Shown: piece by piece, positions 13,616 through 63,430 of the stretch | How positions within the stretch are numbered: the stretch's first letter is position 1 | Layout: every line of letters begins with the position of its first letter | Assembly: GCF_000003605.2 (NCBI RefSeq) | Contig: NW_003125956.1 | Span: 67,171 to 131,170, forward strand | Direction of reading: 5' to 3' | Source of the DNA: Saccoglossus kowalevskii | Taxonomy: Eukaryota > Hemichordata > Enteropneusta > Harrimaniidae | Length of the DNA stretch: 64,000 nt | Program-made: the position numbers and the translations under genes | Notes under the pieces: generated by a model | What the model saw: only the letters and a program-made list of their open reading frames with translations | What the model was told of the DNA's origin: nothing | The model's database searches: none

Positions 13616-15649
13616 GACCAACACTAGGGTTAATTAATAGGCATACACTGACCAACACTAGGGTTAATTAATAGGCATACACTGACCAACACTAGGGTTT
13701 ATTAATAGGCATACACTGACCAACACTAGTGTCTATCAATAGGCATACACTGACCAACACTAGTGTTCATTAATAGGCATACACTGACCAACACTAGGGT
13801 TTATTAATAGGCATACACTGACCAACACTAGGGTTTATTAATAGGCATACAGTGACCAACAATAGGGTTTATTAATAGGCACAAACTGACCAACACTAGG
13901 GTTTATTAATAGGCATACACTGACCAACACTAGGGTTTATTAATAGGCATACACTGACCAACAATAGGGTTTATTAATAGGCACAAACTGACCAACACTA
14001 GGGTTTATTAATAGGCATACACTGACCAACACTAGGGTTTTTTAATAGGCATACACTGACCAACACTAGGGTTTATTAATAGGCAGACACTGACCAACAC
14101 TAGTGTCTATTAATAGGGAGACACTGACCAACACTAGGGTTTATTAATAGACATACACTGACCAACACTAGGGTTTATTAATAGGCAGACACTGACCAAC
14201 ACTAGGGATATTTAATAGGCATACACTGACCAACACTAGGGTTTATTAATAGGCATACATTGACCATCACTAGGGTTTATTAATAGGCATACACTGACCA
14301 ACACTAGGGTCTATTAATAGGCAGACACTGACCAACACTAGGGTTTATTAATAGGCATACACTGACTAACACTAGGGTTTATTAATAGGCATACACTGAC
14401 CTACACTAGAGTTTATTAATAGGCATACACTGACAAACACTAGTGTCTATTAATAGGCAGACACTGACCTATACTAGGGTTTATTAATAGGCAGACACTG
14501 ACCTATATTAGGGTTTACTAATAGGCATACACTGACCAACACTAGGGTTTATTAATAGGCAGACACTGATGTATACTTGGGTTTATTAATAGGCATACAT
14601 TGACCAACACTAGTTTTTATTAATAGGCATACACTGACCAACACTAGGGTTTATTAATAGGCAGACACTGACCAACACGAGGGTTTATTAATAGACATAC
14701 ACTGACCAACACTAGTTTTTATTAATAGGCATACACTGACCAACACTAGTGTCTTTTAATAGGCAGACACTGACCTATACTAGGGTTTATTAATAGGCAC
14801 AAACTGACCAACACTAGGGTTTATTAATAGGCATACACTGACCGAAACTAGGGTTAATTAATAGGCATACACTGACCAACACTAGGGTTTATTAATAGGC
14901 ATACACTGACCAACACTAGTGTGTATTAATATGCATACACTGACCAACACTAGTGTTTATTAATAGGCATACACTGACCAACACTAGGGTTTATTAATAG
15001 GCATACACTGACCAACGCTAGGGTTTATTAATAGCCATACACTGACCAACACTAGGGTTTATTAATAGGCACACACTGACCAACACTAGGGTTTATTAAT
15101 AGGCATACCCTGACCAACACTAGGGTTTATTAATAGGCATACACTGACCAACACTAGGGTTTATTAATAGGCAGACACTGACCAACACTAGTGTCTATTA
15201 ATAGGCAGACACTGACCAACACTAGGGTTTATTAATAGGCATACACTGACAAACACTAGGGTTTATTAATAGGCACACACTGACCTATACTAGGGTTTAT
15301 TAATAGACAGACACTGACCAACACTAGGGTTTATTAATAGGCATACATTGGCCAACACTAGAGTTTATTAATAGGCATACACTGACCAACACTAGGGTCT
15401 ATTAATTGGCAGACACTGACCCAACACTAGGGTTTATTAATAGGCATACACTGACCAACACTAGGGTGTATTAATAGCCATACACTGACCAACACTAGGG
15501 TTATTAATAGGCACACACTGACCAACACTAGGGTTTATTAATAGGCATACACTGACCAACACTAGGGTTTATTAATAGGCATACACTGACCAACACTAGG
15601 GTTTATTAATAGGCAGACACTGACCAACACTAGTGTCTATTAATAGGCA

Positions 15650-16985
15650 GACACTGACCAACACTAGGGTTTATTAATAGGCATACACTGACCAACACTA
15701 GGGTTTATTAATAGGCAGACACTGACCTATACTAGGGTTTATTAATAGACAGACACTGACCAACACTAGGGTTTATTAATAGGCATACATTGACCAACAC
15801 TAGGGTTTATTAATAGGCATACACTGATCAACACTAGGGTCTATTAATAGGCAGACACTGACCAACACTAAGGTTTATTAATAGGCATACACTGACTAAC
15901 ACTAGGGTTTATTAATAGGCATACACTGACCTACACTAGAGTTTATTAATAGGCATACACTGACCAACACTAGGGTTTATTAATAGGCATACACTGACCA
16001 ACACAAGGGTTTATTAATAGGCAGACACTGACCTATACTAGGGTTTACTAATAGGCATACACTGACCAACACTAGGGTTTATTAATAGGCAGACACTGAT
16101 GTATACTTGGGTTTATTAATAGGCATACATTGACCAACACTAGTATTTATTAATAGGCATACACTGACCAACACTAGGGTTTATTAATAGGCAGACACTG
16201 ACCAACACGAGGGTTTATTAATAGACATACACTGACCAACACTAGTTTTTATTAATAGGCATGCACTGACCAACACTAGTGTCTTTTAATAGGCAGACAC
16301 TGACCTATACTAGGGTTTATTAATAGGCACAAACTGACCAACACTAGGGTTTATTAATTGGCATACACTGACCGAAATTAGGGTTAATTAATAGGCATAC
16401 ACTGACCAACACTAGGGTTTATTAATAGGCATACATTGACCAACACTAGTGTGTATTAATAGGCATACACTGACCAACACTAGTGTTTATTAATAGGCAT
16501 ACACTGACCAACACTAGGGTTTATTAATAGGCATACACTGACCAACGCTAGGGTTTATTAATAGCCATACACTGACCAACACTAGGGTTTATTAATAGGC
16601 ACACACTGACCAACACTAGGGTTTATTAATAGGCATACACTGACCAACACTAGCGTTTATTAATAGGCATACACTGACCAACACTAGGGTTTATTAATAG
16701 GCAGACACTGACCAACACTAGTGTCTATTAATAGGCAGACACTGACCAACACTAGGGTTTATTAATAGGCATACACTGACAAACACTAGGGTTTATTAAT
16801 AGGCACACACTGACCTATACTAGGGTTTATTAATAGACAGACACTGACCAACACTAGGGTTTATTAATAGGCATACATTTACCAACACTAGAGTTTATTA
16901 ATAGGCATACACTGACCAACACAAGGGTTTATTAATAGGCAGACACTGACCTATACTAGGGTTTACTAATAGGCATACACTGACC
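15650..16985 (+). repeat. Long block A, partial copy 3
   Basis: Matches 6,548-7,883 at an offset of 9,102 bp: CACTAAGG, GACTAACAC, TAGTATTT, AATTGGCATAC with CCGAAATTAGG and CATACATTTACC all recur in order. A private ATGCACTG is near 16,262. Both ends coincide with single-base indels (a 35-bp unit at 15,421 and a 33-bp unit at 15,501 upstream; a 33-bp unit at 16,991 downstream). Confidence 0.88.
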
Positions 16986-17047
16986 AACACTAGGGTTATT
17001 AATAGGCATACACTGACCAACACTAGAGTTTATTAATAGGCATACAC

Positions 17048-17285
17048 TGACCAACACTAGGGTTTATTAATAGGCATACACTGACCAACACTAGGGTTTA
17101 TTAATAGGCATACACTGACCAACACTAGGGTTTATTAATAGGCATACACTGACCAACACTAGGGTTTATTAATAGGCATACACTGACCAACACTAGGGTT
17201 TATTAATAGGCATACACTGACCAACACTAGGGTTTATTAATAGGCATACACTGACCAACACTAGGGTTTATTAATAGGCATACAC
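17048..17285 (+). repeat. Run of seven identical consensus monomers
   Basis: Seven exact consensus monomers are bounded on both sides by units carrying TAGAGTTT (starting at 17,014 and 17,286). The flanking variants being the same suggests that the run grew between two copies of a repeated marker, or that a block with TAGAGTTT at its end was duplicated. A 33-bp unit (TAGGGTTATT, near 16,991) lies just upstream, at the right end of the block 15,650-16,985. Confidence 0.92.
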
Positions 17286-19320
17286 TGACCAACACTAGAG
17301 TTTATTAATAGGCATACACTGACCAACACTAGGGTTTATTAATAGGCATACACTGACCAACACTAGGGTTTATTAATAGGCAGACACTGACCTATACTAG
17401 GGTTTATTAATAGGCATACACTGACCAACACTAGGGTTTATTAATAGGCAGACACTGATGTATACTTGGGTTTATTAATAGGCATACACTGACCAACACT
17501 AGTTTTTATTAATAGGCATACACTGACCAACACTAGGGTTTATTAATAGGCAGACACTGACCAACACTAGGGTTTATTAATAGACATACACTGACCAACA
17601 CTAGTTTTTATTAATAGGCATACACTGACAAACACTAGTGTCTATTAATAGGCAGACACTGACCTACACTAGGGTTAATTAATAGGCACAAACTGACCAA
17701 CACTAGGGTTTATTAATAGGCATACACTGACCAACACTAGCGTTTATTAATAGGCATACACTGACCAACACTAGCGTTTATTAATAAGCATAAACTGACC
17801 AACACTAGTGTCTATTAATAGGCATACACTGACCAACACTAGGGTTTATTAATAGGCATACACTGACCAACACTAGGGTTAATTAATAGGCATACACTGA
17901 CCAACACTAGGGTTTATTAATAGGCATACACTGACCATCACTAGTGTCTATCAATAGGCATACACTGACCAACACTAGTGTTTATTAATAGGCATACACT
18001 GACCAACACTAGGGTTTATTAATAGGCATACACTGACCAACACTAGGGTTTATTAATAGGCATACACTGACCAACAATAGGGTTTATTAATAGGCACAAA
18101 CTGACCAACACTAGGGTTTATTAATAGGCATACACTGACCAACACTAGGGTTTATTAATAGGCATACATTGACCAACACTAGTTTTTATTAATAGGCATA
18201 CACTGACCAACACTAGGGTTTATTAATAGGCAGACACTGACCAACACGAGGGTTTATTAATAGACATACACTGACCAACACTAGTTTTTATTAATAGGCA
18301 TACACTGACCAACACTAGTGTCTTTTAATAGGCAGACACTGACCTATACTAGGGTTTATTAATAGGCACAAACTGACCAACACTAGGGTTTATTAATAGG
18401 CATACACTGACCAACACTAGGGTTTATTAATAGGCATACACTGACCGAAACTAGGGTTAATTAATAGGCATACACTGACCAACACTAGGGTTTATTAATA
18501 GGCATACACTGACCAACACTAGTGTGTATTAATAGGCATACACTGACCAACACTAGTGTGTATTAATAGGCATACACTGACCAACACTAGTGTTTATTAA
18601 TAGGCATACACTGACCAACACTAGGGTTTATTAATAGGCATATACTGACCAACGCTAGGGTTTATTAATAGCCATACACTGACCAACACTAGGGTTTATT
18701 AATAGGCACACACTGACCAACACTAGGGTTTATTAATAGGCATACACTGACCAACACTAGGGTTTATTAATAGGCATACACTGACCAACACTAGGGTTTA
18801 TTAATAGGCAGACACTGACCAACACTAGTGTCTATTAATAGGCAGACACTGACCAACACTAGGGTTTATTAATAGGCATACACTGACCAACACTAGGGTT
18901 TATTAATAGGCACACACTGACCTATACTAGGGTTTATTAATAGACAGACACTGACCAACACTAGGGTTTATTAATAGGCATACATTGACCAACACTAGAG
19001 TTTATTAATAGGCATACTAGTGACCAACACTAGGGTGTATTAATTGGCAGACACTGACCAACACTAGGGTTTATTAATAGGCATACACTGACCAACACTA
19101 GGGTGTATTAATAGGCATAAACTGACCTACACTAGGGTTTATTAATAGGCATACTCTGACCAACACTAGGGTTTATTAATAGGCATACACTGACCAACAC
19201 TAGGGTTTATTAATAGGCAGACACTGACCTATACTAGAGTTTATTAATAGGCATACACTGACCAACACTAGGGTGTATTAATTGGCAGACACTGACCAAC
19301 ACTAGGGTTTATTAATAGGC

Positions 19321-20295
19321 ATACACTGACCAACACTAGGGTGTATTAATAGGCATACACTGACCTACACTAGGGTTTATTAATAGGCATACTCTGACCA
19401 ACACTAGGGTTTATTAATAGGCATACACTGACCAACACTAGGGTTTATTAATAGGCAGACACTGACCTATACTAGGGTTTATTAATAGGCATACACTGAC
19501 CAACACTAGGCTTTATTAATAGGCATACACTGACCAACACTAGGGTTTATTAATAGGCATACACTGACCAACACTAGAGTTTATTAATAGGCACACACTG
19601 ACCAACACTAGGGTTTAATTATAGGCATACACTGACCAACACTAGTGTCTATTAATAGGCATACACTGACCAACACTAGTGTTTATTAATAGGCATACAC
19701 TGACCAATACTAGGGTTTATTAATAGGCATACACTGACCAACACTAGGGTTTATTAATAGCCATACACTGACCAACACTAGGGTTTATTAATAGGCACAC
19801 ACTGACCAACACTAGGGTTTATTAATAGGCATACACTGACCAACACTAGGGTTTATTAATAGGCATACACTGACCAACACTAGGGTTTATTAATAGGCAG
19901 ACACTGACCAACACTAGTGTCTATTAATAGGCAGACACTGACCAACACTAGGGTTTATTAATAGGCATACACTGACAAACACTAGGGTTTATTAATAGGC
20001 ACACACTGACCTATACTAGGGTTTATTAATAGTCAGACACTGACCAACACTAGGGTTTATTAATTGACATACACTGACCAACACTAGCGTTTATTAATAG
20101 GCATACACTGACCAACACTAGCGTTTATTAATAGGCATACACTGACCTACACTAGGGTTTATTAATAGGCATACACTGACCAACACTAGGCATTATTAAT
20201 AGGAATACACTGACCTTCACTAGTGTTTATTAATAGGCAGACACTAACCTATACTAGGGTTTATTAATAGGCATACACTGACCAACACTAGGGTT
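19321..20295 (+). repeat. Long block C, copy 1
   Basis: Markers in order: CATACTCTG, AGGCTTTATT, TAGAGTTT, GGGTTTAATTATAGG (19,611), CCAATACTAGGG, AATAGCCATAC, paired TAGCGTTT units, AGGCATTATTAATAGGAATAC, GACCTTCAC and CACTAACCTATAC. It has private AATAGTCAGAC and AATTGACATAC changes (about 20,031-20,068), which also occur at about 54,795-54,835. Confidence 0.9.
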
Positions 20296-21196
20296 TATTA
20301 ATAGGCAGATACTGACCAACACTAGGGTTTATTAATAAACATACACTGACCAACACTAGTTTTTATTAATAGGCATACACTGACCAACACTAGTGTCTAT
20401 TAATAGGCAGACACTGACCTATACTAGAGTTTATTAATAGGCACAAACTGACCAACACTAGGGTTTATTAATTGGCATACACTGACCAATAGTTGGGTTT
20501 ATTAATAGGCATACACTGACCAACACTAGGGTTTATTAATAGGCATACACTGACCAACACTAGGGTTTATTAATAGGCATACACTGACCAACACTAGGGT
20601 TTATTAATAGGCACACACTGACCAACACTAGGGTTTATTAATAGGCACACACTGAGCAACACTAGGGTTTATTAATAGGCATACACTGACCAACACTGGG
20701 GTTTATTAAAAGGCATACACTGACCAACACTAGGGTTTATTAATAGGCATACACTGACCAACACTAGTGTTCATTAATAGGCATACACTGACCAACACTA
20801 GCGTTTATTAATAGGCATACACTGACCTACACTAGGGTTTATTAATTGGCATACACTGACCAACACTAGCGTTTATTAATAGGCATACACTGACCAACAC
20901 TAGCGTTTATTAATAGGCATACACTGACCTACACTAGGGTTTATTAATAGGCATACACTGACCAACACTAGGCATTATTAATAGGCATACACTGACCTTC
21001 ACTAGGGTTTATTAATAGGCAGACACTAACCTATACTAGGGTTTATTAATAGGCATACACTGACCAACACTAGGGTTTTTTAATAGGCAGACACTGACCT
21101 ATACTAGGGATTATTAATAGGCATACACTGACCAACACTAGTTTTTCTTAATAGGCATACACTGACCTACACTAGGGTATATTAATAGGCAGACAC

Positions 21197-21230
21197 TGAC
21201 CAACACTAGTTTCTATTAATAGGCAGACAC
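21197..21230 (+). repeat. Full-length version of the TAGTTTCT monomer
   Basis: The only place where TAGTTTCT sits in an intact 34-bp unit. The downstream units (GCAGAC, GCACAC, GCATAC, GCAGAC with CCTAT) match the right flank of the deletion monomers, but the left flank belongs to another block type (TTTTTCTTAATAGG, then GGGTATATTAATAGG). It is either the undeleted ancestor or, more likely given the mismatched left flank, a product of recombination that rejoined the short unit to ten normal bases. Confidence 0.85.
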
Positions 21231-23848
21231 TGACCAACACTAGGGTTTATTAATAGGCACACACTGACCAACACTAGGGTTTATTAATAGGCATACACTG
21301 ACCAACACTAGGGTTTATTAATAGGCAGACACTGACCTATACTAGGGTTTATTAATAGACAGACACTGACCAACACTAGGGTTTATTAATAGGCATACAT
21401 TGACCAACACTAGGGTTTATTAATAGGCATACACTGATCAACACTAGGGTCTATTAATAGGCAGACACTGACCAACACTAGGGTTTATTAATAGGCATAC
21501 ACTGACCAACACTAGGGTTTATTAATAGGCATACACTGACAAACACTAGTGTCTATTAATAGGCAGACACTGTTTTACACTAGGGTTAATTAATAGGCAC
21601 AAACTGACCAACACTAGGGTTTATTAATAGGCATACACTGACCAACACTAGCGTTTATTAATAGGCATACACTGACCAACACTAGCGTTTATTAATAAGC
21701 ATAAACTGACCAACACTAGTGTCTATTAATAGGCATACACTGACCAACACTAGGGTTTATTAATCGGCATACACTGACCAACACTAGGGTTAATTAATAG
21801 GCATACACTGACCAACACTAGGGTTTATTAATAGGCATACACTGACCAACACTAGTGTCTATCAATAGGCATACACTGACCAACACTAGTGTTTATTAAT
21901 AGGCATACACTGACCAACACTAGGGTTTATTAATAGGCATACACTGACCAACACTAGGGTTTATTAATAGGCATACACTGACCAACAATAGGGTTTATTA
22001 ATAGGCACAAACTGACCAACACTAGGGTTTATTAATAGGCATACACTGACCAACACTAGGGTTTATTAATAGGCATACATTGACCAACACTAGTTTTTAT
22101 TAATAGGCATACACTGACCAACACTAGGGTTTATTAATAGGCAGACACTGACCAACACGAGGGTTTATTAATAGACATACACTGACCAACACTAGTTTTT
22201 ATTAATAGGCATACACTGACCAACACTAGTGTCTTTTAATAGGCAGACACTGACCTATACTAGGGTTTATTAATAGGCACAAACTGACCAACACTAGGGT
22301 TTATTAATAGGCATACACTGACCAACACTAGGGTTAATTAATAGGCATACACTGACCAACGCTAGGGTTTATTAATAGGCATACACTGACCAACACTAGG
22401 GTTTATTAATAGGCACACACTGACCAACACTAGGGTTTATTAATAGGCATACACTGACCAACACTAGGGTTTATTAATAGGCATACACTGACCAACACTA
22501 GGGTTTATTAATAGGCAGACACTGACCAACACTAGTGTCTATTAATAGGCAGACACTGACCAACACTAGGGTTTATTAATAGGCATACACTGACAAACAC
22601 TAGGGTTTATTAATAGGCACACACTGACCTATACTAGGGTTTATTAATAGACAGACACTGACCAACACTAGGGTTTATTAATAGGCATACATTGACCAAC
22701 ACTAGAGTTTATTAATAGGCATACACTGACCAACACTAGGGTCTATTAATTGGCAGACACTGACCAACACTAGGGTTTATTAATAGGCATAAACTGACCA
22801 ACACTAGGGTGTATTAATAGGCATACACTGACCTACACTAGGGTTTATTAATAGGCATACACTGACCAACACTAGGGTTTATTATTAGGCATACACTGAC
22901 CAACACTAGGGTTTATTAATAGGCAGACACTGACCTATACTAGGGTTTATTAATAGGCATACACTGACCAACACTAGGCTTTATTAATAGGCATACACTG
23001 ACCAACACTAGGGTTTATTAATAGGCATACACTGACCAACACTAGGGTTTATTAATAAGCACACACTGACCAACACTAGGGTTTATTAATAGGCATACAC
23101 TGACCAACACTAGTGTCTATTAATAGGCATACACTGACCAACACTAGTGTTTATTAATAGGCATACACTGACCAACACTAGGGTTTATTAATAGGCATAC
23201 ACTGACCAACACTAGGGTTTATTAATAGCCATACACTGACCAACACTAGGGTTTATTAATAGGCACACACTGACCAACACTAGGGTTTATTAATAGGCAT
23301 ACACTGACCAACACTAGGGTTTATTAATAGGCATACACTGACCAACACTAGGGTTTATTAATAGGCAGACACTGACCAACACTAGTGTCTATTAATAGGC
23401 AGACACTGACCAACACTAGGGTTTATTAATAGGCATACACTGACAAACACTAGGGTTTATTAATAGGCACACACTGACCTATACTAGGGTTTATTAATAG
23501 ACAGACACTGACCAACACTAGGGTTTATTAATTGGCATACACCGACCAACACTAGCGTTTATTAATAGGCAGACACTGACCTATACTAGGGTTTATTAAT
23601 AGGCACAAACTGACCAACACTAGGGTTTATTAATAGGCACAAACTGACCAACACTAGGGTTTATTAATAGGCATACACTGACCAACACTAGGGTTTATTT
23701 ATAGGCATACACTGACAAACACTAGGGTTTATTAATAGACAGACACTGACCAATACTAGTGTTTATTAATAGGCATACACTGATCAACACTAGGGTTTAT
23801 TAATAGACATAGACTGACCAACACTAGGGTTTATTAATATGCATACAC

Positions 23849-23872
23849 TAGTTTCTATTAATAGGCAGACAC
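23849..23872 (+). repeat. 24-bp deletion monomer, copy 3
   Basis: Same breakpoint. The full upstream series is present: TTTATAGG, GACAAACAC, GACAGACACTGACCAATAC, GATCAAC, then ACATAGAC. Downstream is the TTTGTTAATAGGCACACAC unit shared with copies 2, 4, 5, 6 and 7. Confidence 0.95.
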
Positions 23873-26800
23873 TGACCAACACTAGGGTTTATTAATAGGC
23901 ACACACTGACCAACACTAGGGTTTGTTAATAGGCACACACTGACCAACACTAGGGTTTATTAATAGGCATACACTGACCAACACTAGGGTTTATTAATAG
24001 GCAGACACTGACCTATACTAGGGTTTATTAATAGACAGACACTGACCAACACTAGGGTTTATTAATAGGCATACATTGACCAACACTAGGGTTTATGAAT
24101 AGGCATACACTGATCAACACTAGGGTCTATTAATAGGCAGACACTGACCAACACTAGGGTTTATTAATAGGCATACACTGACCAACACTAGGGTTTATTA
24201 ATAGGCATACACTGACCTACACTAGAGTTTATTAATAGGCATACACTGACCAACACTAGGGTTTATTAATAGGCATACACTGACCAACACTAGGGTTTAT
24301 TAATGGGCAGACACTGACCTATACTAGGGTTTATTAATAGGCATACACTGACCAACACTAGGGTTTATTAATAGGCAGACACTGATGTATACTTGGGTTT
24401 ATTAATAGGCATACACTGACCAACACTAGTTTTTATTAATAGGCATACACTGACCAACACTAGGGTTTATTAATAGGCACAAACTGACCAACACTAGGGT
24501 TTATTAATAGGCATACACTGACTAACACTAGCGTTTATTAATAGGCATACACTGACCAACACTAGCGTTTATTAATAAGCATAAACTGACCAAAACTAGT
24601 GTCTATTAATAGGCATACACTGACCAACACTAGGGTTTATTAATAGGCATACTCTGACCAACACTAGGGTTAATTAATAGGCATACACTGACCAACACTA
24701 GGGTTTATTAATAGGCATACACTGACCAACACTAGTGTCTATCAATAGGCATACACTGACCAACACTAGTGTTCATTAATAGGCATACACTGACCAACAC
24801 TAGGGTTTATTAATAGGCATACACTGACCAACACTAGGGTTTATTAATAGGCATACACTGACCAACACTAGTGTGTATTAATAGATATACACTGACCAAC
24901 ACTAGTGTGTATTAATAGGCATACACTGACCAACACTAGTGTTTATTAATAGGCATACACTGACCAACACTAGGGTTTATTAATAGGCATATACTGACCA
25001 ACGCTAGGGTTTATTAATAGCCATACACTGACCAACACTAGGGTTTATTAATAGGCACACACTGACCAACACTAGGGTTTATTAATAGGCATACACTGAC
25101 CAACACTAGGGTTTATTAATAGGCATACACTGACCAACACTAGGGTTTATTAATAGGCACACACTGACCAACACTAGGGATTATTAATAGGCACACACTG
25201 ACCAACACTAGGGTTTATTAATAGGCATACACTGACCAACACTAGGGTTTATTAATAGGCAGACACTGACCTATACTAGGGTTTATTAATAGACAGACAC
25301 TGACCAACACTAGGGTTTATTAATAGGCATACATTGACCAACACTTGGGTTTATTAATAGGCATACACTGATCAACACTAGGGTCTATTAATAGGCAGAC
25401 ACTGACCAACACTAGGGTTTATTAATAGGCATACACTGACCAACACTAGGGTTTATTAATAGGCATACACTGACCTACACTAGAGTTTATTAATAGGCAT
25501 ACACTGACCAACACTAGGGTTTATTAATAGGCATACACTGACCAACACTAGGGTTTATTAATAGGCAGACACTGACCTATACTAGGGTTTATTAATAGGC
25601 ATACACTGACCAACACTAGGGTTTATTAATAGGCAGACACTGATGTATACTTGGGTTTATTAATAGGCATACACTGACCAACACTAGTTTTTATTAATAG
25701 GCATACACTGACCAACACTAGGGTTTATTAATAGGCAGACACTGACCAACACTAGGGTTTATTAATAGACATACACTGACCAACACTAGTTTTCATTAAT
25801 AGGCATACACTGACAAACACTAGTGTCTATTAATAGGCAGACACTGACCTACACTAGGGTTAATTAATAGGCACAAACTGACCAACACTAGGGTTTATTA
25901 ATAGGCATACACTGACCAACACTAGGGTTTATTAATAGGCATACACTGACCAACACTAGGGTTTATTAATAGGCATACACTGACCAACAATAGGGTTTAT
26001 TAATAGGCACAAACTGACCAACACTAGGGTTTATTAATAGGCATACACTGACCAACACTAGGGTTTATTAATAGGCATACATTGACCAACACTAGTTTTT
26101 ATTAATAGGCATACACTGACCAACACTAGGGTTTATTAATAGGCAGACACTGACCAACACGAGGGTTTATTAATAGACATACACTGACCAACACTAGTGT
26201 TTTATTAATAGGCATACACTGACCAACACTAGTGTCTTATTAATAGGCAGACACTGACCTATACTAGGGTTTATTAATAGGCACAAACTGACCAACACTA
26301 GGGTTTATTAATAGGCATACACTGACCAACACTAGTGTGTATTAATAGGCATACACTGACCAACACTAGTGTTTATTAATAGGCATACACTGACCAACAC
26401 TAGGGTTTATTAATAGGCATACACTGACCAACGCTAGGGTTTATTAATAGCCATACACTGACCAACACTAGGGTTTATTAATAGGCACACACTGACCAAC
26501 ACTAGGGTTTATTAATAGGCATACACTGACCAACACTAGGGTTTATTAATAGGCATACACTGACAAACACTAGTGTCTATTAATAGGCAGACACTGACCT
26601 ACACTAGGGTTAATTAATAGGCACAAACTGACCAACACTAGGGTTTATTAATAGGCATACACTGACCAACACTAGCGTTTATTAATAGGCATACACTGAC
26701 CAACACTAGCGTTTATTAATAAGCATAAACTGACCAACACTAGTGTCTATTAATAGGCATACACTGACCAACACTAGGGTTTATTAATAGGCATACACTG

Positions 26801-28158
26801 ACCAACACTAGGGTTAATTAATAGGCATACACTGACCAACACTAGGGTTTATTAATAGGCATACACTGACCAACACTAGTGTCTATCAATAGGCATACAC
26901 TGACCAACACTAGTGTTTATTAATAGGCATACACTGACCAACACTAGGGTTTATTAATAGGCATACACTGACCAACACTAGGGTTTATTAATAGGCATAC
27001 ACTGACCAACAATATGGTTTATTAATAGGCACAAACTGACCAACACTAGGGTTTATTAATAGGCATACACTGACCAACACTAGGAATTATTAATAGGCAT
27101 ACATTGACCAACACTAGTTTTTATTAATAGGCATACACTGACCAACACTAGGGTTTATTAATAGGCAGACACTGACCAACACGAGGGTTTATTAATAGAC
27201 ATACACTGACCAACACTAGTTTTTATTAATAGGCATACACTGACCAACACTAGTGTCTTTTAATAGGCAGACACTGACCTATACTAGGGTTTATTAATAG
27301 GCACAAACTGACCAACACTAGGGTTTATTAATAGGCATACACTGACCAACACTAGGGTTTATTAATAGGCATACACTGACCGAAACTAGGGTTAATTAAT
27401 AGGCATACACTGACCAACACTAGGGTTTATTAATAGGCATACACGGACCAACACTAGTGTGTATTAATAGGCATACACTGACCAACACTAGTGTGTATTA
27501 ATAGGCATACACTGACCAACACTAGTGTTTATTAATAGGCATACACTGACCAAGACTAGGGTTTATTAATAGGCATATACTGACCAACGCTAGTGTTTAT
27601 TAATAGCCATACACTGACCAACACTAGGGTTTATTAATAGGCACACACTGACCAACACTAGGGTTTATTAATAGGCATACACTGACCAACACTAGGGTTT
27701 ATTAATAGGCATACACTGACCAACACTAGGGTTTATTAATAGGCAGACACTGACCAACACTAGTGGCTATTAATAGGCAGACACTGACCAACACTAGGGT
27801 TTATTAATAGGCATACACTGACAAACACTAGGGTTTATTAATAGGCACACACTGACCTATACTAGGGTTTATTAATAGACAGACACTGACCAACACTAGG
27901 GTTTATTAATAGGCATACATTGACCAACACTAGAGTTTATTAATAGGCATACACTGACCAACACTAGGGTCTATTAATTGGCAGACACTGACCAACACTA
28001 GGGTTTATTAATAGGCATACACTGACCAACACTAGGGTTTATTAATAGGCATACACTGACCTACACTAGGGTTTATTAATAGGCATACACTGACCAACAC
28101 TAGGGTTTATTAATAGGCATACACTGACCAACACTAGGGTTTATTAATAGGCAGACAC

Positions 28159-28430
28159 TGACCAACACTAGGGTTTATTAATAGGCATACACTGACCAAC
28201 ACTAGGGTTTATTAATAGGCATACACTGACCAACACTAGGGTTTATTAATAGGCATACACTGACCAACACTAGGGTTTATTAATAGGCATACACTGACCA
28301 ACACTAGGGTTTATTAATAGGCATACACTGACCAACACTAGGGTTTATTAATAGGCATACACTGACCAACACTAGGGTTTATTAATAGGCATACACTGAC
28401 CAACACTAGGGTTTATTAATAGGCATACAC
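28159..28430 (+). repeat. Run of eight identical consensus monomers
   Basis: Eight consecutive monomers are letter-for-letter the consensus, the longest pure run I found. It is preceded by a unit ending in GCAGACAC and followed by one ending in GCACACAC. Elsewhere two or three consensus units in a row is typical before a variant appears. This suggests a recent local expansion by slippage or short unequal exchange. Collapse or over-expansion in assembly would look the same. Confidence 0.93.
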
Positions 28431-31660: not shown

Positions 31661-31684
31661 TAGTTTCTATTAATAGGCAGACAC
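31661..31684 (+). repeat. 24-bp deletion monomer, copy 4
   Basis: Same breakpoint and flanks. Private changes nearby are AATAGGTATACAC and CACTATGG in the two upstream units (about 31,583-31,605). Confidence 0.95.
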
Positions 31685-47781: not shown

Positions 47782-48309
47782 GGTCTATTAATAGGCAGAC
47801 ACTGACCAACACTAGGGTTTGTTAATAGGCATACACTGACCAACACTAGGGTTTATTAATAGGCATACACTGACCTACACTAGAGTTTATTAATAGGCAT
47901 ACACTGACCAACACTAGGGTTTATTAATAGGCATACACTGACCAACACTAGGGTTTATTAATAGGCAGACACTGACCTATACTAGGGTTTATTAATAGGC
48001 ATACACTGACCAACACTAGGGTTTATTAATAGGCAGACACTGATGTATACTTGGGTTTATTAATAGGCATACACTGACCAACACTAGTTTTTATTAATAG
48101 GCATACACTGACCAACACTAGGGTTTATTAATAGGCAGACACTGACCAACACTAGGGTTTATTAATAGACATACACTGACCAACACTTGTTTTTATTAAT
48201 AGGCATACACTGACAAACACTAGTGTCTATTAATAGGCAGACACTGACCTATACTAGGGTTTATTAATAGGCACAAACTGACCAACACTAGGGTTTATTA
48301 ATAGGCATA

Positions 48310-50240: not shown

Positions 50241-50890
50241 TTGGCATACACTGACCAACACTAGCGTTTATTAATAGGCATACACTGACCAACACTAGCG
50301 TTTATTAATAGGCATACACTGACCTACACTAGGGTTTATTAATAGGCATACACTGACCAACACTAGGCATTATTAATAGGCATACACTGACCTTCACTAG
50401 GGTTTATTAATAGGCAGACACTAACCTATACTAGGGTTTATTAATAGGCATACACTGACCAACACTAGGGTTTATTAATAGGCAGACACTGACCTATACT
50501 AGGGATTATTAATAGGCATACACTGACCAACACTAGTTTTTCTTAATAGGCATACACTGACCAACACTAGGGTATATTAATAGGCAGACACTGACCAACA
50601 CTAGGGTTTATTAATAGACATACACTGACCAACACTAGTTTTTATTAATAGGCATACACTGACCAACACTAGTGTCTATCAATAGGCAGACACTGACCTA
50701 TACTAGGGTTTATTAATAGGCACAAACTGACCAACACTAGGGTTTATTAATAGGCACAAACTGACCAACACTAGGGTTTATTAATAGGCATACACTGACC
50801 AACACTAGGGTTTATTTATAGGCATACACTGACAAACACTAGGGTTTATTAATAGACAGACACTGACCAATACTAGTGTTTATTAATAGG
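49633..50890 (+). repeat. Tandem segmental duplication, first unit
   Basis: Repeats in the next 0.9 kb at an offset of 1,258 bp (37 monomers), rising to 1,292 bp after a monomer missing near 50,170. Shared order: GCACACAC with CCTATAC, GACAGAC, CATTGACC with TAGAGTTT, TCTATTAATTGG, AGGCTTTATT, paired TAGCGTTT, AGGCATTATT, GACCTTCAC and CACTAACC. Confidence 0.85.
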
Positions 50891-51775
50891 CACACACTGA
50901 CCTATACTAGGGTTTATTAATAGACAGACACTGACCAACACTAGGGTTTATTAATAGGCATACATTGACCAACACTAGAGTTTATTAATAGGCATACACT
51001 GACCAACACTAGGGTCTATTAATTGGCAGACACTGACCAACACTAGGGTTTATTAATAGGCATACACTGACCAACACTAGGGTGTATTAATAGGCATACA
51101 CTGACCTACACTAGGGTTTATTAATAGGCATACACTGACCAACACTAGGGTTTATTAATAGGCATACACTGACCAACACTAGGGTTTATTAATAGGCAGA
51201 CACTGACCTATACTAGGGTTTATTAATAGGCATACACTGACCAACACTAGGCTTTATTAATAGGCATACACTGACCAACACTAGGGTTTATTAATAGGCA
51301 TACACTGACCAACACTAGGGTTTATTAATAGGCACACACTGACCAACACTAGGGTTTATTAATAGGCAGACACTGACCAACACTAGTGTCTATTAATAGG
51401 CAGACACTGACCAACACTAGGGTTTATTAATAGGCATACACTGACCAACACTAGGGTTTATTAATAGGCACACACTGACCTATACTAGGGTTTATTAATA
51501 GACAGACACTGACCAACACTAGGGTTTATTAATTGGCATACACTGACCAACACTAGCGTTTATTAATAGGCATACACTGACCAACACTAGCGTTTATTAA
51601 TAGGCATACACTGACCTACACTAGGGTTTATTAATAGGCATACACTGACCAACACTAGGCATTATTAATAGGCATACACTGACCTTCACTAGGGTTTATT
51701 AATAGGCAGACACTAACCTATACTAGGGTTTATTAATAGGCATACACTGACCAACACTAGGGTTTATTAATAGGC
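50891..51775 (+). repeat. Tandem segmental duplication, second unit
   Basis: The join at about 50,888 follows the CCAATACTAGTG unit, which in other blocks leads to the 24-bp deletion monomer; here that series is cut off. The copy ends near 51,774 after CACTAACC, where consensus-like units and then a divergent stretch begin. Confidence 0.85.
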
Positions 51776-53244
51776 ATACACTGACCAACACTAGGGTTTA
51801 TTAATAGGCATACACTGACCAACACTAGGGTTTATTAATAGGCATACACTGACCTACACTAGGGTTTATTAATAGGCATACACTGACCAACACTAGGGTT
51901 TATTAATAGGCATACACTGACCATCACTAGGGTTTATTAATAGGCAGACACTGACCTATACTAGGGTTTATTAATAGGCATACGCTGACCAACACTAGGA
52001 TTTATTAATAGGCAGAAACTGACCTATACTAGGGATTATTAATAGGCATACACTGACCAACACTAGTTTTTATTAATAGGCATACACTGACCTATACTAG
52101 GGTTTATTAATAGACAAACACTGACCAATAGTTGGGTTTATTAATAGGCATACACTGACCAACACTATGGTTTATTAATAGGCATACACTGACAAACACT
52201 AGGGTTTATTAATAGACATACACTGACCAACACTAGTGTCTATCAATAGGCAGACACTGACCTATACTAGGGTTTATTAATAGGCACAAACTGACCAACA
52301 CTAGGGTTTATTAATAGGCATACACTGACCAACACTAGGGTTTATTAATAGGCATACACTGACCAACACTAGGGTTTATTAATCGGCAGACACTGACCAA
52401 CACTAGCGTCTATTAATAGGCAGACACTGACCAACACTAGGGTTTATTAATAGGCATACACTGACCAACACTAGGGTTTATTAATAGGCAGACACTGACC
52501 TATACTAGGGTTTATTAATAGACAGACACTGACCAACACTAGGGTTTATTAATAGGCATACATTGACCAACACTAGGGTTTATTAATAGGCATAGACTGA
52601 TCAACACTAGGGTCTATTAATAGGCATACACTGACCAACACTGGGGTTTATTAATAGGCATACACTGACCAACACTAGGGTTTATTAATAGGCATACACT
52701 GACCAACACTAGGGTTTATTAATAGGCACACACTGACCAACACTAGGGATTATTAATAGGCATACACTGACAAACACTAGCGTTTATTAACAGGCATAAA
52801 CTGACCAACACTAGTGTCTATTAATAGGCAGACACTGACCAACACTAGGGTTTATTAATAGACAGACACTGACCAACACTAGGGTTTATTAATAGGCATA
52901 CACTGACCAACACTAGCGATTATTAATAGGCATACACTGACCAACACTTGTTTTTATTAATAGGCATACACTGACCAACACTAGGGTTTATTAATAGGCA
53001 TACACTGACCAACACTAGGGTTTATTAATAGGCATACACTGACCAACACTAGGGTTTATTAATAGGCACACACTGACCAACACTAGGGTTTATTAATAGG
53101 CATACACTGACCAACACAAGGGTTTATTAATAGGCATACACTGACCAACACTAGGGTTTATTAATAGGCAGACACTGACCAACACTAGTGTCTATTAATA
53201 GGCAGACACTGACCAACACTAGGGTTTATTAATAGGCATACACT

Positions 53245-54530
53245 GACCACCTCACTAGGGTTTATTAATAGGCAGACACTGACCTATACTAGGGTTTATT
53301 AATAGACAGACACTGACCAACACTAGGGTTTATTAATAGGCATACATTGACCAACACTAGGGTTTATTAATAGGCATACACTGATCAACACTAGGGTCTA
53401 TTAATAGGCAGACACTGACCAACACTAAGGTTTATTAATAGGCATACACTGACTAACACTAGGGTTTATTAATAGGCATACACTGACCTACACTAGAGTT
53501 TATTAATAGGCATACACTGACCAACACTAGGGTTTATTAATAGGCATACACTGACCAACACAAGGGTTTATTAATAGGCAGACACTGACCTATACTAGGG
53601 TTTACTAATAGGCATACACTGACCAACACTATGGTTTATTAATAGGCAGACACTGATGTATACTTGGGTTTATTAATAGGCATACATTGACCAACACTAG
53701 TATTTATTAATAGGCATACACTGACCAACACTAGGGTTTATTAATAGGCAGACACTGACCAACACGAGGGTTTATTAATAGACATACACTGACCATCACT
53801 AGTTTTTATTAATAGGCATACACTGACCAACACTAGTGTCTTTTAATAGGCAGACACTGACCTATACTAGGGTTTATTAATAGGCACATACTGACCAACA
53901 CTAGGGTTTATTAATAGGCATACACTGACCAACACTAGCGTTTATTAATAGGCATACACTGACCAACACTAGCGTTTTATTAATAAGGCATAAACTGACA
54001 AACTAGTGTCTATTAATAGGCATACACTGACCTACACTAGGGTTTATTAATAGGCATACTCTGACCAACACTAGGGTTTATTAATAGGCATACACTGACC
54101 AACACTAGGGTTTATTAATAGGCAGACACTGACCAACACTAGTTTTTCTTAATAGGCAGACACTGACCAACACTAGGGTATATTAATAGGCAGACACTGA
54201 CCAACACTAGGGTTTATTAATAGACATGCACTGACCAACACTAGTTTTTATTAATAGGCATACACTGACCAACACTAGTGTCTATCAATAGGCAGACACT
54301 GACCTATACTAGGGTTTATTAATAGGCACAAACTGACCAACACTAGGGTTTATTAATAGGCACAAACTGACCAACACTAGGGTTTATTAATAGGCATACA
54401 CTGACCAACACTAGGGTTTATTTATAGGCATACACTGACAACACTAGGGTTTATTAATAGCATACACTGACCAATACTAGGGTTTATTAATAGGCATACA
54501 CTGACCAACACTAGGGTTTATAATAGCCAT
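53245..54530. other. Scattered indels around block switches
   Basis: Length changes at about 53,250 (GACCACCTCACTAG, plus two), 53,972-54,003 (GCGTTTTATT, AATAAGGCATAAAC, GACAAACTAG), 54,439 (GACAACACTAG), 54,469 (AATAGCATAC) and 54,522 (GTTTATAATAG). They bracket the partial block A copy at 53.27-53.88 kb and the point near 54.45 kb where a TTTATTTATAGG series turns into a CCAATACTAGGG series. Confidence 0.85.
53270..53880 (+). repeat. Long block A, partial copy 5
   Basis: Carries CACTAAGG, GACTAACAC, CACTATGG, the GATGTATAC unit (53,655), TAGTATTT, CACGAGGG and GACCATCAC. Its CACTATGG and GACCATCAC changes link it most closely to the copy at 61.25-63.4 kb. It is bracketed by indel-bearing units at about 53,250 and 53,970-54,005. 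Confidence 0.85.
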
Positions 54531-55758
54531 ACACTGACCAACACTAGGGTTTATTAATAGGCACACACTGACCAACACTAGGGTTTATTAATAGGCATAC
54601 ACTGACCAACACTAGGGTTTATTAATAGGCATACACTGACCAACACTAGGGTTTATTAATAGGCAGACACTGACCAACACTAGGGTTTATTAATAGGCAG
54701 ACACTGACCAACACTAGGGTTTATTAATAGGCATACACTGACAAACACTAGGGTTTATTAATAGGCACACACTGACCTATACTAGGGTTTATTAATAGTC
54801 AGACACTGACCAACACTAGGGTTTATTAATTGACATACACTGACCAACACTAGCGTTTATTAATAGGCATACACTGACCAACACTAGCGTTTATTAATAG
54901 GCATACACTGACCTACACTAGGGTTTATTAATAGGCATACACTGACCAACACTAGGCATTATTAATAGGAATACACTGACCTTCACTAGTGTTTATTAAT
55001 AGGCAGACACTAACCTATACTAGGGTTTATTAATAGGCATACACTGACCAACACTAGGGTTTATTAATAGGCAGACACTGACCTATACTAGGGATTATTA
55101 ATAGGCATACACTGACCAACACTAGTTTTTCTTAATAGGCATACACTGACCAACACTAGGGTATATTAATAGGCAGAAACTGACCAACACTAGGGTTTAT
55201 TAATAGACATACACTGACCAACACTAGTTTTTATTAATAGGCATACACTGACCAACACTAGTGTCTATCAATAGGCAGACACTGACCTATACTAGGGTTT
55301 ATTAATAGGCACAAACTGAACAACACTAGGGTTTATTAATAGGCACAAACTGACCAACACTAGGGTTTATTAATAGGCATACACTGACCAACACTAGGGT
55401 TTATTAATAGACATACACTGACCAACACTAGTTTTTATTAATAGGCATACACTGACCAACACTAGTGTCTATCAATAGGCAGACACTGACCTATACTAGG
55501 GTTTATTAATAGGCACAAACTGACCAACACTAGGGTTTATTAATAGGCACAAACTGACCAACACTAGGGTTTATTAATAGGCATACACTGACCAACACTA
55601 GTGTCTATTAATAGGCAGACACTGACCAACACTAGGGTTTATTAATAGACAGACACTGACCAATACTAGTGTTTATTAATAGGCATACACTGATCAACAC
55701 TAGGGTTTATTAATAGACATAGACTGACCAACACTAGGGTTTATTAATATGCATACAC

Positions 55759-55782
55759 TAGTTTCTATTAATAGGCAGACAC
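55759..55782 (+). repeat. 24-bp deletion monomer, copy 8
   Basis: Same breakpoint. Downstream the TTTGTTAATAGG unit of copies 2-7 is absent and a GCATAC unit follows the GCACAC unit, as in copy 9. Confidence 0.95.
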
Positions 55783-56122
55783 TGACCAACACTAGGGTTT
55801 ATTAATAGGCACACACTGACCAACACTAGGGTTTATTAATAGGCATACACTGACCAACACTAGGGTTTATTAATAGGCATACACTGACCAACACTAGGGT
55901 TTATTTATAGGCATACACTGACAAACACTAGCGTTTATTAATAGGCATACACTGACCAACACTAGTGTCTATTAATAGGCAGACACTGACCAACACTAGG
56001 GTTTATTAATAGACAGACACTGACCAATACTAGTGTTTATTAATAGGCATACACTGATCAACACTAGGGTTTATTAATAGACATAGACTGACCAACACTA
56101 GGGTTTATTAATATGCATACAC

Positions 56123-56146
56123 TAGTTTCTATTAATAGGCAGACAC
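56123..56146 (+). repeat. 24-bp deletion monomer, copy 9
   Basis: Only 364 bp after copy 8 (11 monomer lengths minus ten), the tightest pair. The intervening units repeat, so this is a recent local tandem duplication. Confidence 0.95.
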
Positions 56147-57098
56147 TGACCAACACTAGGGTTTATTAATAGGCACACACTGACCAACACTAGGGTTTAT
56201 TAATAGGCATACACTGACCAACACTAGGGTTTATTAATAGGCATACACTGACCAACACTAGTGTCTATTAATAGGCAGACACTGACCAACACTAGGGTTT
56301 ATTAATAGGCATACACTGACCAACACTAGGGTTTATTAATAGGCATACACTGACCAACACTAGTGTCTATTAATAGGCAGACACTGACCAACACTAGGGT
56401 TTATTAATAGGCATACACTGACAAACACTAGGGTTTATTAATAGGCACACACTGACCTATACTAGGGTTTATTAATAGACAGACACTGACCAACACTAGG
56501 GTCTATTAATAGGCATACATTGACCAACACTAGAGTTTATTAATAGGCATACACTGACCAACACTAGGGTGTATTAATTGGCAGACACTGACCAACACTA
56601 GGGTTTATTAATAGGCATACACTGACCAACACTAGGGTGTATTAATAGGCATACACTGACCTACACTAGGGTTTATTAATAGGCATACTCTGACCAACAC
56701 TAGGGTTTATTAATAGGCATACACTGACCAACACTAGGGTTTATTAATAGGCAGACACTGACCAACACTAGGGTTTATTAATAGACATACACTGACCAAC
56801 ACTAGTTTTTATTAATAGGCATACACTGACCAACACTAGTGTCTATCAATAGGCAGACACTGACCTATACTAGGGTTTATTAATAGGCACAAACTGACCA
56901 ACACTAGGGTTTATTAATAGGCACAAACTGACCAACACTAGGGTTTATTAATAGGCAGACACTGACCAACACCAGGGTTTATTAATAGACAGACACTGAC
57001 CAATACTAGTGTTTATTAATAGGCATACACTTATCAACACTAGGGTTTATTAATAGACATAGACTGACCAACACTAGGGTTTATTAATATGCATACAC

Positions 57099-57122
57099 TA
57101 GTTTCTATTAATAGGCAGACAC
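57099..57122 (+). repeat. 24-bp deletion monomer, copy 10
   Basis: Lies 976 bp after copy 9 (29 monomer lengths minus ten). A private change CACTTATCAACAC is found in the unit two places upstream (near 57,030). Confidence 0.95.
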
Positions 57123-60100
57123 TGACCAACACTAGGGTTTATTAATAGGCACACACTGACCAACACTAGGGATTATTAATAGGCACACACTGACCAACAC
57201 TAGGGTTTATTAATAGGCATACACTGACCAACACTAGGGTTTATTAATAGGCAGACACTGACCTATACTAGGGTTTATTAATAGACAGACACTGACCAAC
57301 ACTAGGGTTTATTAATAGGCATACATTGACCAACACTTGGGTTTATTAATAGGCATACACTGATCAACACTAGGGTCTATTAATAGGCAGACACTGACCA
57401 ACACTAGGGTTTATTAATAGGCATACACTGACCAACACTAGGGTTTATTAATAGGCATACACTGACCTACACTAGAGTTTATTAATAGGCATACACTGAC
57501 CAACACTAGGGTTTATTAATAGGCATACACTGACCAACACTAGGGTTTATTAATAGGCAGACACTGACCTATACTAGGGTTTATTAATAGGCATACACTG
57601 ACCAACACTAGGGTTTATTAATAGGCAGACACTGATGTATACTTGGGTTTATTAATAGTCATACACTGACCAACACTAGTTTTTATTAATAGGCATACAC
57701 TGACCAACACTAGGGTTTATTAATAGGCAGACACTGACCAACACTAGGGTTTATTAATAGGCATACACTGACCAACACTAGGGTTAATTAATAGGCATAC
57801 ACTGACCAACACTAGGGTTTATTAATAGGCATACACTGACCAACACTAGTGTCTATCAATAGGCATACACTGACCAACACTAGTGTTTATTAATAGGCAT
57901 ACACTGACCAACACTAGGGTTTATTAATAGGCATACACTGACCAACACTAGGGTTTATTAATAGGCATACACTGACCAACACTAGGGTTTATTAATAGGC
58001 ATACACTGACCAACATTAGGGTTTATTAATAGGCATACACTGACCAACACTAGGGTTTATTAATAGGCAGACACTGACGTATACTAGGGTTTATTAATAG
58101 ACAGACACTGACCAACACTAGGGTTTATTAATAGGCATACATTGACCAACACTAGGGTTTATTAATAGGCATACACTGATCAACACTAGGGTCTATTAAT
58201 AGGCAGACACTGACCAACACTAGGGTTTATTAATAGGCATACACTGACCAACACTAGGGTTTATTAATAGGCATACACTGACCAACACTAGGGTTTATTA
58301 ATAAGCAGACACTGACCAACACTAGGGTTTATTAATAGGCAGACACTGACCAACACTAGGGTTAATTAATAGGCATACACTGACCAACACTAGGGTTTAT
58401 TAATAGGCATACACTGACCAACACTAGTGTCTATCAATAGGCATACACTGACCAACACTAGTGTTTATTAATAGGCATACACTGACCAACACTAGATTTT
58501 ATTAATAGGCATACACTGACCAACACTAGGGTTTATTAATAGGCATACACTGACCAACAATAAGGTTTATTAATAGGCACAAACTGACCAACACTAGGGT
58601 TTATTAATATGCATACACTGACCAACACTAGGGTTTATTAATAGGCATACATTGACCAACACTAGTTTTTATTAATAGGCATACACTGACCAACACTAGG
58701 GTTTATTAATAGGCAGACACTGACCAACACGAGGGTTTATTAATAGACATACACTGACCAACACTAGTTTTTATTAATAGGCATACACTGACCAACACTA
58801 GTGTCTTTTAATAGGCAGACACTGACCTATACTAGGGTTTATTAATAGGCACAAACTGACCAACACTAGGGTTTATTAATAGGCATACACTGACCAACAC
58901 TAGGGTTTATTAATAGGCATACACTGACCGAAACTAGGGTTAATTAATAGGCATACACTGACCAACACTAGGGTTTATTAATAGGCATACACTGACCAAC
59001 ACTAGTGTGTATTAATAGATATACACTGACCAACACTAGTGTGTATTAATAGGCATACACTGACCAACACTAGTGTTTATTAATAGGCATACACTGACCA
59101 ACACTAGGGTTTATTAATAGGCATATACTGACCAACGCTAGGGTTTATTAATAGCCATACACTGACCAACACTAGGGTTTATTAATAGGCACACACTGAC
59201 CAACACTAGGGTTTATTAATAGGCATACACTGACCAACACTAGGGTTTATTAATAGGCATACACTGACCAACACTAGGGTTTATTAATAGGCAGACACTG
59301 ACCAACACTAGTGTCTATTAATAGGCAGACACTGACCAACACTAGGGTTTATTAATAGACATACACTGACCAACACTAGTTTTTATTAATAGGCATACAC
59401 TGACAAACACTAGTGTCTATTAATAGGCAGACACTGACCTACACTAGGGTTAATTAATAGGCACAAACTGACCAACACTAGGGTTTATTAATAGGCATAC
59501 ACTGACCAACACTAGCGTTTATTAATAGGCATACACTGACCAACACTAGCGTTTATTAATAAGCATAAACTGACCAAGACTAGTGTCTATTAATAGGCAT
59601 ACACTGACCAACACTAGGGTTTATTAATAGGCATACACTGACCAACACTAGGGTTAATTAATAGGCATACACTGACCAACACTAGGGTTTATTAATAGGC
59701 ATACACTGACCAACACTAGTGTCTATCAATAGGCATACACTGACCAACACTAGTGTTTATTAATAGGCATACACTGACCAACACTAGGGTTTATTAATAG
59801 GCATACACTGACCAACACTAGGGTTTATTAATAGGCATACACTGACCAACAATAGGGTTTATTAATAGGCACAAACTGACCAACACAAGGGTTTATTAAT
59901 AGGCATACACTGACCAACACTAGGGTTTATTAATAGGCATACATTGACCAACACTAGTTTTTATTAATAGGCATACACTGACCAACACTAGGGTTTATTA
60001 ATAGGCAGACACTGACCAACACGAGGGTTTATTAATAGACATACACTGACCAACACTAGTTTTTATTAATAGGCATACACTGACCAACACTAGTGTCTTT

Positions 60101-61249
60101 TAATAGGCAGACACTGACCTATACTAGGGTTTATTAATAGGCACAAACTGACCAACACTAGGGTTTATTAATAGGCATACACTGACCAACACTAGTGTGT
60201 ATTAATAGGCATACACTGACCAACACTAGTGTGTATTAATAGGCATACACTGACCAACACTAGTGTTTATTAATAGGCATACACTGACCAACACTAGGGT
60301 TTATTAATAGGCATATACTGACCAACGCTATGGTTTATTTATAGCCATACACTGACCAACACTAGGGTTTATTAATAGGCACACACTGACCAACACTAGG
60401 GTTTATTAATAGGCATACACTGACCAACACTAGGGTTTATTAATAGGCATACACTGACCAACACTAGTGTCTATTAATAGGCAGACACTGACCAACACTA
60501 GGGTTTATTAATAGGCATACACTGACCAACACTAGGGTTTATTAATAGGCATACACTGACCAACACTAGTGTCTATTAATAGGCAGACACTGACCAACAC
60601 TAGGGTTTATTAATAGGCATACACTGACAAACACTAGGGTTTATTAATAGGCACACACTGACCTATACTAGGGTTTATTAATAGACAGACACTGACCAAC
60701 ACTAGGGTCTATTAATAGGCATACATTGACCAACACTAGAGTTTATTAATAGGCATACACTGACCAACACTAGGGTGTATTAATTGGCAGACACTGACCA
60801 ACACTAGCGTTTATTAATAGGCATACACTGACCTACACTAGGGTTTATTAATAGGCATACACTGACCAACACTAGGCATTATTAATAGGCATACACTGAC
60901 CTTCACTAGGGTTTATTAATAGGCAGACACTAACCTATACTAGGGTTTATTAATAGGCATACACTGACCAACACTAGGGTTTTTTAATAGGCAGACACTG
61001 ACCTATACTAGGGATTATTAATAGGCATACACTGACCAACACTAGTTTTTCTTAATAGGCATACACTGACCAACACTAGGGTATATTAATAGGCAGACAC
61101 TGACCAACACTAGGGTTTATTAATAGACATACACTGACCAACACTAGTTTTTATTAATAGGCATACACTGACCAACACTAGTGTCTATCAATTGGCAGAC
61201 ACTGACCTATACTAGGGTTTATTAATAGGCACAAACTGACCAACACTAG

Positions 61250-63398
61250 GGTTTATTAATAGGCACAAACTGACCAACACTAGGGTTTATTAATAGGCAT
61301 ACACTGACCAACACTAGGGTTTTTTAATAGGCATACACTGACCAACACTAGTGTCTATTAATAGGGAGACACTGACCAACACTAGGGTTTATTAATAGGC
61401 ATACACTGACCAACACTAGGGTTTATTAATAGGCAGACACTGACCTATACTAGGGTTTATTAATAGACAGACACTGACCAACACTAGGGTTTATTAATAG
61501 GCATACATTGACCAACACTAGGGTTTATTAATAGGCATACACTGATCAACACTAGGGTCTATTAATAGGCAGACACTGACCAACACTAAGGTTTATTAAT
61601 AGGCATACACTGACTAACACTAGGGTTTATTAATAGCCATACACTGACCTACACTAGAGTTTATTAATAGGCATACACTGACCAACACTAGGGTTTATTA
61701 ATAGGCATACACTGACCAACACAAGGGTTTATTAATAGGCTGACACTGACCTATACTAGGGTTTACTAATAGGCATACACTGACCAACACTATGGTTTAT
61801 TAATAGGCAGACACTGATGTATACTTGGGTTTATTAATAGGCATACATTGACCAACACTAGTATTTATTAATAGGCATACACTGACCAACACTAGGGTTT
61901 ATTAATAGGCAGACACTGACCAACACGAGGGTTTATTAATAGACATACACTGACCATCACTAGTTTTTATTAATAGGCATACACTGACCAACACTAGTGT
62001 CTTTTAATAGGCAGACACTGACCTATACTAGGGTTTATTAATAGGCACAAACTGACCAACACTAGGGTTTATTAATTGGCATACACTGACCGAAATTAGG
62101 GTTAATTAATAGGCATACACTGACCAACACTAGGGTTTATTAATAGGCATACATTGACCAACACTAGTGTGTATTAATAGGCATACACTGACCAACACTA
62201 GTGTTTATTAATAGGCATACACTGACCAACACTAGGGTTTATTAATAGGCATACACTGACCAACGCTAGGGTTTATTAATAGCCATACACTGACCAACAC
62301 TAGGGTTTATTAATAGGCACACACTGACCAACACTAGGGTTTATTAATAGGCATACACTGACCAACACTAGGGTTTATTAATAGGCATACACTGACCAAC
62401 ACTAGGGTTTATTAATAGGCAGACACTGACCAACACTAGTGTCTATTAATAGGCAGACACTGACCAACACTAGGGTTTATTAATAGGCATACACTGACAA
62501 ACACTAGGGTTTATTAATAGGCACACACTGACCTATACTAGGGTTTATTAATAGACAGACACTGACCAACACTAGGGTTTATTAATAGGCATACATTTAC
62601 CAACACTAGAGTTTATTAATAGGCATACACTGACCAACACAAGGGTTTATTAATAGGCAGACACTGACCTATACTAGGGTTTACTAATAGGCATACACTG
62701 ACCAACACTAGGGTTTTTTAATAGGCATACATTGACCAACACTAGAGTTTATTAATAGGCATACACTGACCAACACAAGGGTTTATTAATAGGCAGACAC
62801 TGACCTATACTAGGGTTTACTAATAGGCGTACACTGACCAACACTAGGGTTTATTAATAGGCAGACACTGATGTATACTTGGGTTTATTAATAGGCATAC
62901 ATTGACCAACACTAGTTTTTATTAATAGGCATACACTGACCAACACTAGGGTTTATTAATAGGCAGACGCTGACCAACACGAGGGTTTATTAATAGACAT
63001 ACACTGACCAACACTAGTTTTTATTAATAGGCATACACTGACCAACACTAGTGTCTTTTAATAGGCAGACACTGACCTATACTAGGGTTTATTAATAGGC
63101 ACAAACTGACCAACACTAGGGTTTATTAATAGGCATACACTGACCAACACTAGGGTTTATTAATAGGCATACACTGACCGAAACTAGGGTTAATTAATAG
63201 GCATACACTGACCAACACTAGGGTTTACTAATAGGCATACACTGACCAACACTAGCGTGTATTAATAGGCATACACTGACCAACACTAGTGTTTATTAAT
63301 AGGCATACACTGACCAACACTAGGGTTTATTAATAGGCATACACTGACCAACGCTAGGGTTTATTATAGCCATACACTGACCAACACTAGGGTTTATT
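61250..63398 (+). repeat. Long block A, copy 2
   Basis: Matches copy 1 through the GCAGACGC and TAGCGTGT units. Private changes include GCTGACAC (61,739), AATAGCCAT (about 61,635), GACCATCAC (about 61,947, shared with the partial copy near 53,790) and GGTTTTTTAATAGG (about 62,712). The similarity fades where single-base losses occur at about 63,366 and 63,400. Confidence 0.93.
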
Positions 63399-63430
63399 AT
63401 AGGCATACACTGACCAACACTAGGGTTATT
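63364..63430. other. Indel cluster at the end of block A copy 2
   Basis: Three single-base losses in three neighbouring monomers: TTATTATAGCC, TTATTATAGGC and TAGGGTTATT. They sit at the right limit of the 2.1-kb match to 6.43-8.58 kb, and the sequence to the right belongs to other block types and then to the diverged tail. Confidence 0.88.

Follow-up and report, generated by a model that had tools for sequence, protein, structure and literature searches.

The rare small indels of the satellite array studied here are mostly changes of one base in short runs, they are clustered and seem to be private, and we consider, with a probability of about 0.7, that they are mostly residual consensus error, i.e., run-length errors of the reads that were left uncorrected. 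The analyses were performed on one window, a stretch of 64,000 nucleotides from Saccoglossus kowalevskii (contig NW_003125956.1, positions 67,171 to 131,170, forward strand).

The satellite array and its small indels

One 34-bp satellite array fills the whole window (Tandem Repeats Finder row 1–63998, period 34, 1885.3 copies, 90% matches), and its split into monomers gave 1,886 pieces of 257 kinds, 126 of which are singletons. The repeat decays from about 63,800 through the last 200 bases of the window (63800–64000; by eye and in the alignment), so that one edge of the array seems to lie inside the window. Blocks within the array are copied freely, with a mean length of about 13 monomers according to the copying model at a switch cost of 2.5, and both substitutions and a 10-bp deletion travel along with the blocks. 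Satellite arrays evolve by unequal exchange and local duplication, and the array described here resembles such arrays in that its variant series form a mosaic that stays in register and contains repeated blocks. The copying model also revealed long repeated blocks lying far apart, 6417–8558 with 61271–63377 and 3663–5566 with 42667–44670, which comprise about 56–63 monomers and carry 8–11 mismatches each to the template.

Indels were called in a wrap-around alignment of the window to the 34-bp consensus. Of 62 gap groups, 30 belong to the ten copies of the 10-bp deletion, two are located in the decayed edge (63,822 and 63,851) and were excluded from every count, and 30 are small indels. These 30 events, all before 63.5 kb, fall in 26 monomers and form 14 clusters (Table 1). 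Alignment of each indel monomer with the clean kind closest to it resolves the events into deletions of one base (17), insertions of one base (12) and a single insertion of two bases. Every indel position listed in the sequence-only reading, an earlier inspection of the letters of the window, was recovered by this alignment within a few bases, together with four indels missing from that list (19,018, 26,198, 26,236 and 36,588). The events are unevenly distributed, with a variance/mean ratio of 2.56 per 200 bp, computed on 29 of the 30 positions; none of 5,000 placements drawn at random was as uneven. Small indels are absent from 1–15400, yet this stretch holds 31 of the 141 switches between variant series.

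Table 1. Satellite array, clusters of small indels and the first copy of the shared deletion; distances to switches are those of the copying model
Position	Strand	Feature	Basis
1..63800	.	Array of the 34-bp satellite (consensus TGACCAACACTAGGGTTTATTAATAGGCATACAC), a mosaic of variant series	Tandem Repeats Finder, monomer split
1945..1997	.	First of ten 24-bp short units (10-bp deletion)	Tandem Repeats Finder, alignment, copying model
15417..15518	.	Switch at 15,486 between two run-length indels, an insertion (15,420) and a deletion (15,500)	Alignment, copying model
16981..17013	.	One-base deletion within TTT; switch one monomer away	Alignment, copying model
18986..19020	.	One-base insertion, non-run-length; 7 monomers from switch; not listed earlier	Alignment, copying model
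26185..26254	.	Two insertions; switch one monomer away; not listed earlier; flanks linked elsewhere in some model-free settings	
32467..32501	.	Insertion in T run and one substitution; switch one monomer away	
32910..32944	.	Insertion in six-T run; switch one monomer away	
36583..36617	.	Insertion in AA; switch one monomer away; not listed earlier	
40290..40391	.	One insertion and one deletion; switch one monomer away	
42568..42800	.	Cluster of highest density, straddling a switch: one substitution and seven one-base indels (42,592–42,786, about 195 bases)	
49605..49639	.	Insertion in AA at called switch; flanks linked elsewhere (model-free test)	
53244..53279	.	Two-base insertion, non-run-length; 3–6 monomers from switch	
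53960..54027	.	Two monomers holding four one-base events in all; switch two monomers away	
54436..54534	.	Three one-base deletions at switch	
63345..63443	.	Three one-base deletions in three successive monomers, at switch	

The indels affect mainly run length. The deletions fall in runs of at least two bases in 15 of 17 cases (16 if the event at 42,768 is assigned to another, equally good parent), while 16 of the 34 consensus bases lie in runs (p 0.0005), and 10 of 13 insertions repeat the neighbouring base, a figure given without a chance comparison. An excess of substitutions beside the clusters was not seen, as monomers with a singleton substitution account for 3/60 within two monomers of a cluster and 101/1,787 elsewhere; the 26 indel monomers themselves carry two further substitutions.

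Moreover, the one-base indels are apparently private and not shared between copies. Each of the 26 indel monomers is its own case, whereas for substitutions about 129 kinds are shared and 104 monomers are singletons (p 4e-9, in a comparison of monomers with kinds, which are different units). Among the families of joints present in several copies, none had an indel in two or more copies (0/154, 0/124 and 0/98 for k 3, 4 and 5), and an indel near one copy was found in 8, 6 and 4 families, respectively, which at k 3 corresponds to 8/154 families and 8/591 copies. A comparison of private with shared joints (7/93 against an assumed 0/98, p 0.006–0.03) was dropped because those eight shared families do hold one indel copy. 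Twenty-one pairs of indel monomers share an indel part, and in all of them the flanks differ by at least 1.0 mismatch per monomer; the closest pairs, 16,981 with 63,411 (6 mismatches in 6 monomers) and 42,735 with 54,502, both stand at 1.0. Given such fairly similar flanks, a few equal indels might have a common origin, which leaves some doubt about their privacy. The lack of sharing among copies of a joint would be expected if the indels were absent from the DNA itself or, almost without exception, very young.

Position of the indels relative to template switches

Switches were called with a copying model in which each monomer is copied from elsewhere in the array and a change of template carries a cost. 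The indel-bearing monomers were blanked, so that an indel cannot create a switch by itself. At a cost of 2.5, the model called 139–141 switches, and 11 of the 14 clusters are at most one monomer away from a switch, the exceptions being those at 18,986, 53,244 and 53,960. Equally masked random placement gave an expectation of 4.6 ± 1.7 clusters (p 0.0013 with 1,500 placements; p 0.004 in a run of 250), and local shifts of up to 15–40 monomers with the switches held fixed gave p 0.0010 or less. When only distance 0 was counted, 5/14 clusters were found against 2.8 expected (p 0.12–0.14). With higher switch costs, the number of close clusters was 10/14 at 3.5 and 8/14 at both 5 and 7; over this range, p was 0.002–0.013 on counts and 0.023–0.055 on mean distance (cost 5: 0.013 for counts and 0.049 for mean distance; cost 7: 0.011 and 0.055).

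Monomers with a singleton substitution are likewise enriched near switches (43/104 against 28.5 expected, p 0.017), and part of the tendency is therefore not special to indels; compared with them, the indel clusters lie nearer to switches (11/14 against 43/104, p 0.009). The 10-bp deletion, which leaves a 24-bp unit and occurs in ten copies (1962, 12662, 23838, 31650, 45340, 46214, 47496, 55748, 56112 and 57088), was used as a control for a shared indel; three of its ten copies fall within one monomer of a switch, which is no excess. By eye, ACACT direct repeats border this deletion. The two clusters made up solely of non-run indels sit away from switches, an observation made post hoc that does not serve as an independent test.

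A test without the model asked, in 16 settings, whether the two flanks of a cluster also occur together elsewhere in the array. Unlinked clusters exceeded the expectation in all 16 settings, e.g., 11/14 against 6.7 (p 0.018) or 10/14 against 3.8 (p 0.0008), with p below 0.05 in seven of the settings and between 0.066 and 0.49 in the other nine. The count of exact monomer words showed no enrichment at k 3, at which an indel monomer lies within one of 9/213 private joint words and of 72/1,868 boundaries, and the results at k 4 and 5 were alike. This count assigns each indel monomer to one parent kind, and it is for this reason a weak test, though it still speaks against closeness. The proposal of the sequence-only reading that many of the indels sit where variant series change is supported by the copying model and by the direction of the flank-linkage test, but not by every test. 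The tendency towards switches is likely real, but its size is uncertain and depends on the method.

Origin of the indels

In the explanation that we prefer, run-length errors of the reads would have remained uncorrected in the assembled sequence, and they would persist at sites whose local succession of monomers has few or no counterparts in the array and where read support is weak or ambiguous. Since reads should correct such errors at a real, normally covered joint, weak support has to be assumed, and it is presumably the cause of the residual errors. Misestimated homopolymer length is given as the main error of HiFi reads in PMC7545148. The indels of the array resemble residual homopolymer-length errors in long-read assemblies in being one-base run-length changes that are clustered, apparently private and unaccompanied by extra substitutions. 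They differ from them in that most of the runs involved are of two or three bases, which is short for typical homopolymer errors, and in their closeness to joins of variant series, which was not found described for such errors in the accessible portions of the literature searched. The short runs, the singleton substitutions that also lie near switches and the null exact-word count all count against consensus error. Of the two origins suggested in the sequence-only reading, poor consensus agrees with the run-length character, the apparent privacy, the clustering and the lack of extra substitutions, while error-prone recombination is disfavoured. If the indels are consensus errors, their presence near private joints could point out weak spots in assembled satellite arrays without recourse to reads.

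The joints that bear indels may be real but poorly covered. A sub-case of consensus error, possible but doubtful, is that these joints are artificial as well, the consensus crossing there between copies and producing an order present in no real molecule. Errors would presumably stay uncorrected if no read crosses such a joint. Against this stands the difference between templates, which amounts to 2.9 mismatches per monomer in random pairs, 2.7 where a joint bears an indel (11 joints) and 2.6 where it does not (130 joints), values that depend on the template chosen; where templates are nearly as different as random pairs, accurate reads should not overlap by mistake, though noisy reads might. 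The preserved 34-bp register also argues against it, and blunt joining of contigs, with no overlap, was ruled against, as before 63.5 kb the register is kept save for shifts of one or two bases and the shared 10-bp deletion. The suspicion that the block order is partly artificial was not borne out, given this register, the 130 of 141 called joints that have no indel within one monomer and the many joint kinds that occur at least twice. Only at the 11 joints that carry indels is the order suspect and to be taken as unproven; the remaining joints are not put in doubt by the indels. It is unlikely that the closeness to switches is a matter of chance or a product of switch calling, the indels being scattered errors or mutations. 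The exact-word count, the nine of 16 model-free settings that do not fall below p 0.05 and the count at distance 0 (p 0.12–0.14) speak for such scatter; the mask-matched null (p 0.0013), the local-shift null (p 0.001 or less), the identical direction in 16/16 model-free settings and the comparison with singleton substitutions (p 0.009) oppose it. Chance placement is thus disfavoured by the masked and local nulls, but not by the exact-word count.

Error-prone joints of satellite recombination, at which template-switching repair synthesis, for instance break-induced replication, would leave one-base frameshifts, are a quite improbable source of the indels. The proximity of the clusters to switches, in the copying model and under local shifts, fits such joints, as does the similar one-base, run-biased spectrum of break-induced replication in yeast, where, according to PMC3039667, frameshifts rise up to 2,800-fold, are mostly one-base deletions and lie in runs of at least two bases in 70–100% of cases. 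The likeness extends to the short runs and to a pathway with template switching, and because break-induced replication gives a similar spectrum, run length was dropped as a deciding test. The same paper describes errors that span the whole synthesis path and increases in frameshifts and substitutions that typically correlate. In the array, substitutions are not raised, and the events are single or grouped within less than about 200 bp, whatever synthesis path there may have been. The absence of a substitution excess beside the clusters, the packing of seven indels into about 195 bases and the absence of any joint family in which two copies carry an indel all speak against this origin. Very improbable, finally, is a variant in which new joints would arise by repair synthesis of very low fidelity that makes frameshifts without substitutions within about 100 bases of the joint, the frameshifted units being lost before they spread. 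Were the indels real, they would show where satellite recombination formed joints and with what fidelity.

The search for an exact 27-base match to the satellite in genome_contigs and viral_contigs gave none, and neither did the search for a near match to bases 1–2,500 in plasmids. Six monomer pieces searched in the texts of papers gave, among the matches listed, two papers with a single occurrence of one piece in each. The plant-type telomere repeat is TTTAGGG, and the consensus monomer contains TAGGGTTTA, which is similar to it by eye.
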